From assembly GCF_019977735.1 (NCBI RefSeq), contig NZ_AP025018.1:6700580-6764579 (forward strand): a DNA stretch of 64,000 nt, given 5' to 3'. This document shows, piece after piece, positions 25,263 to 33,064 of the stretch; within the stretch, counting starts at the first letter, position 1, and each line of letters opens with the position of its first letter. This DNA is from Calothrix sp. PCC 7716 (GTDB taxonomy: Bacteria > Cyanobacteriota > Cyanobacteriia > Cyanobacteriales > Nostocaceae). Made by a program: the position numbers and the translations under genes. Below the pieces are notes generated by a model, which saw only the letters and a list, made by a program, of their open reading frames with translations, did no database searches and was not told the origin of the DNA.

Positions 25263-25682
25263 CTCGGATGTCTCGAATGTACGCGCGTTATATATATAGT
25301 TCCCTGAATCGCTTCATCATATATAGGCGCCGTTTGACAAACTTGAACTATCAAAGCGAGTTCATTTACAAATAATACTCTTAACTATTGATTATGCATT
25401 AAAGGGTTGAGTGTTGATTTTGTAATACAGGCGCCACTCCAGAAATGAAGGACGAATGGCGCCCTAAACTGCATCAAAAGTAAATTGTTCTCATCCTCTC
25501 TGTATTTTCCCGGATTGAGGAGTAATCTTCCCGTAGCTGATATGTGGCGAGTAATCTATTATTTACCGTGCGCTTCGTGTTTCCTAGTTAACTACTTAAA
25601 GAGAAGTCGAAACTATTACCTCTAACTGACTACCTCAGTTAAAGGCACCATTTATAATTCATAGAATAATATCCTTAAGACA
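25263..25682. other. Intergenic region
   Basis: No gene. GGCGCC at 25328, 25432 and 25460. The last 100 bp before 25683 are AT-rich and may hold the promoter of the RNase III-like gene. Confidence 0.5.
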
Positions 25683-32544: not shown

Positions 32545-33064
32545 ATGACAACATACTGCCGCGACCAAGCTAGAGAAGAATTGACATTGATGATGGGAGG
32601 AGGCGCCGCTCACTTCGTTCAAATGCAAAATTCAAAATGCAAAATTCAAAATGATAGAGGGTATTCAAATGTACCTAAACTACATGTTGATTAGAGAGTA
32701 TTGGATTACTTCTTTAATTTTTAATTTTTAATTTTTAATTTTGAACTTGAGCGCAGCGAGTGGCGCCGGAGTTTTCAATGCCAGCCTAACTGCTGTGCAA
32801 GCTGCTGTTGTTGCTCGTATTGCTCAAGTTTATGACGTGGATATCATTGCCGCAGGTGGAGCAGGCGCCCAAGAGGAAGCAATCATTGCAGCGGGTGGAG
32901 GACAATTATTAGCCAGGGTTGGAGGAACATTGGCTGGCATGATTCCTGGTGTAGGAGGACTTGTTCAACCAGCGATTGGGGCAGGTGCAGTTAAAGCGTT
33001 TGGTGAAGCCACAATTGCCTACTTTGAGAATCTTTACCCCAACAAGGTTTATGTCAAGAAGTAG
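32545..33064 (+). pseudogene. DUF697-like small membrane protein gene split by a GGCGCC-bounded element
   Basis: An ATG at 32545 with AGGG upstream starts MTTYCRDQAREELTLMMGGG. The frame then enters a 160-bp insertion (32602-32767) and stops. From the second GGCGCC the frame resumes as GVFNASLTAVQAAVVARIAQ and runs to VYVKK at 33064, with the hydrophobic glycine-rich core VGGTLAGMIPGVGGLVQPAI typical of DUF697-type C-termini. Deleting one GGCGCC plus the insertion joins GGA GGC GCC GGA in frame and gives about 120 residues. A start inside the insertion (32741) could express the distal part. Confidence 0.7.
32602..32767. mobile_element. 160-bp GGCGCC-flanked miniature inverted-repeat element
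   Basis: GGCGCC at 32602-32607 and 32762-32767 flank the insert. Its ends are imperfect inverted repeats (GGCGCCGCTCACTTCGTTCAA against the complement of TTGAGCGCAGCGAGTGGCGCC, 17 of 21). Inside are AAAATTCAAAATGC tandem units on the left and TTTTTAA tandem units on the right. There is no coding capacity. The flanking words act as a 6-bp duplication, as after insertion into a GGCGCC target. Confidence 0.7.

Follow-up and report, generated by a model that had tools for sequence, protein, structure and literature searches.

A small glycine-rich gene of Calothrix sp. PCC 7716 is interrupted between two copies of the palindromic word GGCGCC, which raises the question of what the insert is and what part the word plays in it. 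To address this, we analyzed the 64-kb stretch of DNA that holds the gene (the window; G000:C1:6700580-6764579, G000 being the source genome of 12.37 Mb) together with related loci, including those of Calothrix sp. NIES-4105 (G002) and Calothrix sp. PCC 7103 (G004). The window contains 160 copies of GGCGCC where 3.65 would be expected, and the genome 20,380, compared with 7 of the reversed word. The HIP1 word GCGATCGC has a count of 0 in the window, to which this count is confined. Such a profile, with GGCGCC far over-represented and HIP1 absent from the window, is that of an alternative HIP (highly iterated palindrome). In Calothrix PCC 7103, according to Elhai 2015 (PMC4390886), GGCGCC takes the role of alternative HIP; the paper attributes two GRCGYC methyltransferases to that strain and accounts for the word by a methylation-linked repair bias. 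The abundance of the word is therefore already known, for the same word in the same genus, and the window likewise lacks HIP1; in contrast to that account, the element described here uses GGCGCC and does not explain it. Our preferred answer, to which we assign a probability of about 0.62, is that the insert represents a palindromic Calothrix element resembling MITEs or SDRs, non-autonomous, for which GGCGCC serves as the site of entry into DNA, often with exchange of host DNA.

The interrupted gene and its intact homologs

An earlier note on this DNA had proposed that removing one word and the insert restores the gene exactly. Skipping both does yield a continuous open frame of 119 residues (Table 1), and the 153 bp to the left of the insert are 97% identical to L031, an intact paralog that the genome carries on contig C2. 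However, the rebuilt frame is not the ancestral gene. Uninterrupted homologs were sought and found, namely L031 and L009 (G004), and both read MGGGA-LCGVAGGIPVVGA-GVFNASL; in place of the element they have 33 bp between two Gly-Ala codon pairs, and the joined window frame lacks 13 of their residues. Extra residues at the gap are present in all five aligned homologs (L031, L009, L010, L012 and L013), fewer of them in L013. What was replaced thus amounts to 39 bp (33 bp plus one word), a multiple of three, which is why the window frame is maintained. Given the homologous codons at the right word (Table 1), the ancestor of the window copy may have carried a full word there as well.

The element appears to have inactivated one of two copies of this gene. 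Neither the 3′ piece nor the intact paralog matched a Pfam family above cut-off (best E 0.91 and 0.32, respectively), and the plasmid records contained no relative of the gene at E 1e-5. Beside an in-gene GGCGCC (window 32864-32885), L031 and L009 have ALAGA and the window copy has AQEEA; these clustered changes may stem from decay following inactivation. Upstream, the homology of the chromosomal and contig C2 copies starts at the GGCGCC-containing CAGGCGCCAC at window 32455, ~90 bp before the start codon.

Table 1 Features of the interrupted locus, in window coordinates
Feature	Position	Strand	Basis or remark
5′ part of the broken gene, MTTYCRDQAREELTLMMGGGA, up to and including the left word	32545..32607	+	translation
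Left GGCGCC word	32602..32607	.	also in homologs L031 and L009
Element, non-coding imperfect palindrome, 154 bp	32608..32761	.	family in G000, G002, G003, G004
Left end module GCTC-AC-TTC-GT-TC, complementary 2-bp stem, TTC loop	32608..32620	+	sequence and family covariation
Left heptamer array, AAAATGC/AAAATTC units	32621..32652	+	
Core of ~60 bp, conserved between copies	32653..32711	.	alignment of copies
Right heptamer array, TTTTTAA units	32712..32743	+	
Right end module ACTC-GC-TGC-GC-TC (minus-strand reading)	32749..32761	-	
Right GGCGCC word	32762..32767	.	corresponding codons GGTGCC in L009 (G004), GGGGCT in L031 (paralog)
3′ piece of the broken gene, same frame	32768..33064	+	33 bp present in homologs absent before this piece

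Anatomy, ends and family of the element

The description of the insert itself as a miniature palindromic element held up. The two words stand at 32602 and 32762 with 154 bp between them, the inverted-repeat ends match at 17 of 21 positions counting the words and at 15 of 21 without them, and the A/T tandem units form period-7 arrays on both sides (lag-7 matches 18/22 and 25/27). As in MITEs (under ~500 bp, non-coding), the element has stops in all three plus-strand frames, the frame of the gene included, and contains no frame of at least 50 residues on either strand; its terminal inverted repeats, again as in MITEs, are conserved across the family. In strand folding it folds better than 200 of 200 shuffles (z −4.5). 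Among 195 GGCGCC pairs lying 60-400 bp apart in the window, its own pair has the best arm match (11/15; runner-up 9). A search of tracts of the source genome for GGCGCC-bounded palindromes returned only the window pair in 1935 pairs; shifted controls gave a mean of 0.9 and a maximum of 4, and this single pair is therefore not significant alone. Tracts of relatives yielded 4 in 419 pairs against a control mean of 0.12, three of the four being in loci picked for the element. With a stricter cut-off none was found, the window pair being missed too.

The element belongs to a family with defined ends, the word at its junctions and a covarying 2-bp stem in each end. The family was collected by DNA search, and by sequence models and patterns that leave out GGCGCC. 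In same-genus loci, 38 distinct end matches were obtained with at most 1 mismatch. Half of these (19/38) abut GGCGCC exactly, 4 abut a one-change form and 2 have the word or a near-word one base out, the near-words at some ends being GGCACC and GGTGCC; the other 13 have neither, and several of them look like chance matches in coding genes. As the chance of the word per end is ~1/607, the observed count corresponds to P about 5e-43, a value to be read with the ends partly non-independent, since L109 and L110 are near-identical plasmid copies. The word stands on both sides in the window, L108, L111, L117 and L196. Ends without it occur in L047, L189, L119 and L120, and at one end each of L114, L116, L110, L039 and L042.

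With ACTC-NN-TNC-NN-TC as the end consensus, we scored the complementarity of the two NN dinucleotides. Complementarity holds for 27 of the 29 distinct word-linked ends, compared with a mean of 10 and a maximum of 20 in 20,000 shuffles, a count that is inflated by the relatedness of the copies and that does not include the left end of the window element, which starts with GCTC. Three stem combinations occur (GC..GC, AC..GT and GT..AC). On the opposite strand the loop reads GNA, and GNA triloop DNA hairpins are unusually stable; for the 2-bp end stems, a folding program with standard DNA energies predicts no folding. Ends so conserved, with stems that covary, speak for specific recognition.

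Four full-length copies were found in G000 by the model search, all within 6.556-6.734 Mb. Among the matches listed from 41 genomes, scores above 50 bits occurred only in G000, G002, G003 and G004, with part of the G002 copies on contigs C3, C4 and C5, which by their length are plasmid records; the weaker matches listed from other genera have mostly the heptamer arrays and an end in common. Related elements range from about 30 to 210 bp, the shortest unit being ~30 bp, and include shorter ones with like ends and another interior (45 bp, L044:4520-4564; 92 bp, L196). Truncated copies (L113, L118, L037 and L047) show that the family undergoes ordinary decay as well. A named-genome scan for full-length elements gave 54 stretches, 3 from Calothrix, 50 from other organisms and 1 from an uncultured cyanobacterium, the last with no word at its ends. 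Rfam gave nothing above the gathering score in 7 loci. For other genera, 30 loci were counted, of which 5 were from the source genome and 1 was not matched. Of the 24 non-own loci, 16 have GTC before the end module, and none has GGCGCC or HIP1 there. In several HIP1-type relatives (L102, L084, L103 and others) the end module, often GTC-preceded, accompanies another core, of GTGGGGGCTTG-type hairpins.

The suggestion that the element is the reason for the dispersal of the word failed on numbers. Word-linked end-like sites in G000 number 23 (at most 2 mismatches), some of which may be chance and 15 of which lie in 6.517-6.837 Mb (~0.32 Mb). Set beside 20,380 words, these sites and the 4 full-length copies led us to reject the idea that the element spreads GGCGCC, and point to use of the word by the element instead.

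Family sites compared with uninterrupted homologs

We compared 17 family copies and one other element with homologous loci. The word is already present in most uninterrupted homologs, and host DNA was lost beside the element at most of the sites that could be resolved. Nine of the 17 copies were resolved on both sides, and seven of these nine show replacement, of 12 to about 409 bp (the window, L116, L115, L114, L110, L112 and L196). Besides the window, where the left word is shared with both homologs, L116 (G004; flanks 96% and 93% identical to G000, second homolog in G006) has 185 bp replaced relative to L141 and L132, both with the left word. At L115, 41 bp are replaced relative to three homologs, which have at the junction the left word (L144), AGACGC (L139) or GGCGCT (L247). 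L114 was compared with seven places; 50-59 bp are replaced at six and 104 at a weak seventh (L172), and the right word is present in six of the seven, being absent in L154. L110 has 46 and 12 bp replaced relative to L155 and L251, respectively, both with the right word. In L112, the element together with extra sequence has taken the place of ~409 bp that L122 has between GGCACC and GGCGCC; the match on the left is weak (66 bp at 76%). Finally, L196 (G004) differs from L253 (G002) by a clean swap between pre-existing words, GGCGCC-17 bp-GGCGCC to GGCGCC-element-GGCGCC, as judged from one homologous place with no outgroup. At most replacement sites the loss starts at the element end or its word, and the distal junctions, read by eye, are GTG, TGG, CCA or the word.

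These replacements bear directly on ordinary MITE transposition, in which a 6-bp GGCGCC target duplication would have been followed by a later, unrelated loss of the 39 bp, for example by slippage between neighboring words. A clean target-site duplication was seen only in an unrelated GA-rich element and, with a composite insert, in L042, the window itself being a replacement. The former, a 138-bp GA/CT-heptamer palindrome of G004 (L169:17467-17604), is a second, unrelated element at GGCGCC and duplicates the word cleanly relative to uninterrupted G000 and G003, as MITE transposition would have it. L042, which also fits, has its composite insert between GGCGCC and GGTGCC where G003 (L243) has one GGCACC, and the existence of truncated family copies points the same way. 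L108 is compatible with plain insertion at one word when compared with L239 (G000); four other places are not clear, and the gap sizes are inconsistent (+18 at four places, −21 with L239). Against it stands replacement at 7 of 9 two-sided sites, mostly starting at the element end or word, and when G000 and G004 were compared over 38 kb, 0 of 16 small indels fell at the word. We consider this explanation unlikely. The earlier proposal of GGCGCC as an insertion target or duplicated site stands as far as a preferred junction is concerned, the clean duplication of the word being seen in a different small element.

GGCGCC as a general rearrangement hot spot, without the element, is likewise unsupported by the same 0/16 count. 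In a wider set of 559 gap events, from loci chosen partly for holding the element and with places repeated, the word is on one side in 105 and on both sides in both sequences in 6, these 6 coming from two separate places, of which one is the GA-rich element. Loci selected in the same way gave 90 length differences, with the word at both ends of the longer sequence in 7, at one end in 26 and at neither in 57. The word is in both copies at 16 of 286 repeated-block ends versus 98 of 5133 interiors, an excess that we do not rely on because a shared word is often where a block ends, and the element itself is among the blocks.

Further copies, with the exception of L043 and L037, gave readings of single junctions. 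Homology starts at the word in 4/4 homologs of L039 and in the single homologs of L111 and of the 45-bp L044 element. For L113, one homolog has the word, one has GGTGCC and one has neither, L236 being a homolog without the word, and an own-genome stretch has the word; L118 is truncated on the compared side and its homology starts without the word. The left flank of L117 shows 100% identity to one G004 place across 82 bp that include the word, three of four left homologs being without the word. Its right flank aligns with a different place, in G003, starting from the word, so that the element joins at words two places that are separate in the homologs.

A junction of this kind would also result if double-strand breaks at GGCGCC, made for example by a GRCGYC-type nuclease, were repaired with a hairpin-rich fragment captured through the 6-bp word or shorter microhomology, with no dedicated transposase. 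Capture as filler DNA would account for the joined places of L117, for junctions at the word or 3-bp microhomology with loss of host DNA, and for two unrelated palindrome types at one word, and two GRCGYC methyltransferases are given for PCC 7103 by Elhai 2015 (PMC4390886). The conserved ends and covarying stems favor specific recognition instead, and it is the copies of one family that recur, not random fragments; we regard filler capture as a serious rival, though an unlikely one. About as unlikely is the more speculative reading that HIP words are recombination junctions, such that the interval between neighboring GGCGCC words is exchanged for a hairpin cassette with those words, recognized through its covarying GNA-type mini-hairpins by some activity; cyanobacterial HIP words would then be docking sites for cassettes, among other roles. 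That GGCGCC arises after insertion through a HIP-making mutational bias and is not used as a target is very improbable, for although near-words (GGCACC, GGTGCC) at some ends and GTC before the ends in 16/24 non-own loci of other genera would suit it, the word is already in the uninterrupted homologs at most junctions.

Proposed mechanism and relation to known repeats

Taken together, the ends, the junction words and the homolog comparisons support GGCGCC as the insertion junction, as the earlier note had suspected. For an element entering at this word, we infer an enzyme that would read the small end hairpins as single-stranded DNA and join the element at GGCGCC. Joining would leave a word on each side, either as a 6-bp duplication or by placing a GCCACTC..GAGTGGC unit inside the word, with GGC before it and GCC after it, two routes that are inseparable because both yield identical sequence. 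Host DNA between the word and a neighboring word or short microhomology would be exchanged or lost, simultaneously or soon after; in the window, the element would have taken the place of 33 bp and a word between two in-frame Gly-Ala codon pairs.

The search for a mobilizing enzyme covered one transposase family, Y1_Tnp, and 0 of 30 scanned loci (of 53 matches, within ~1.5 kb) had the end module. The end-pattern matches in 7 genomes, inspected by eye, included no inverted pair 1-3 kb apart that could be an autonomous element; two matches of one orientation lie 2.6 kb apart in G004. Separately, a wordless end module at G000:C1:6891608-6891625 (L120, L063) lies 7 bp from a 5′-truncated Y1_Tnp remnant (6891362-6891601), beside a frame that resembles tnpB by eye. 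This is possibly the remnant of a mobilizing element and possibly chance.

Cyanobacteria reportedly carry small dispersed repeats, SDR1-8, said to have been described by Elhai and colleagues in 2008 as units of 21-27 nt nested in heptamer repeats and minitransposons, with stems backed by compensatory changes. The complementary stems in 27/29 ends match this reported feature, and the 154-bp window element is longer than the reported units, as is the shortest related unit (~30 bp). SDR5, according to Elhai 2015 (PMC4390886), is located within HIP1, after the third base of the word and before the fourth. Our elements are likewise small palindromic modules, as SDR5 is one placed precisely in a HIP word, but they span ~30-210 bp, have GGCGCC on each side and replace host DNA, and the window element sits at GGCGCC in a window devoid of HIP1. 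Among bacterial MITEs, Nezha is a cyanobacterial example (cited in PMC10969869). The present elements are similarly short, non-coding, interspersed and gene-breaking with inverted ends, and differ in the HIP-word junction, in the usual loss of flanking DNA and in that no parent insertion sequence was found. REPINs, or RAYT-linked REP pairs, have a variable interior bounded by two small hairpin modules in inverted orientation. Our elements resemble them in this, but have a different end sequence, and no Y1 transposase gene lay beside the modules in the 30 loci scanned.

Literature searches for GGCGCC with HIP1 or Calothrix found only Elhai 2015, and those for cyanobacterial dispersed repeats, MITEs, STRR and heptamers did not find the element among the papers listed; Elhai 2008 or others may describe it. 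We file it as a variant within the SDR/MITE kind, the abundance of GGCGCC itself being known. The role of HIP words is unsettled, and these natural before/after pairs, in which a palindrome with covarying end stems swaps out host DNA at an alternative HIP word, open a possible connection of HIP words with site-specific recombination to testing in laboratory strains of Calothrix.

Two observations concern GGCGCC apart from the element. Between shared words, window 25431-25463 has ~20 bp where L049 4024-4694 (contig C2) has ~660 bp, the outer homology being 84% and 81%; this word-to-word difference does not contain the present element. In the right flank of L196, the 31-bp GGCGCCGTCGTTATCAGGGTGCATCTACCAT recurs in G002, G003, G004 and G006 at 97-100% identity, and each match listed starts at the word, so that this stretch is perhaps another word-anchored repeat.
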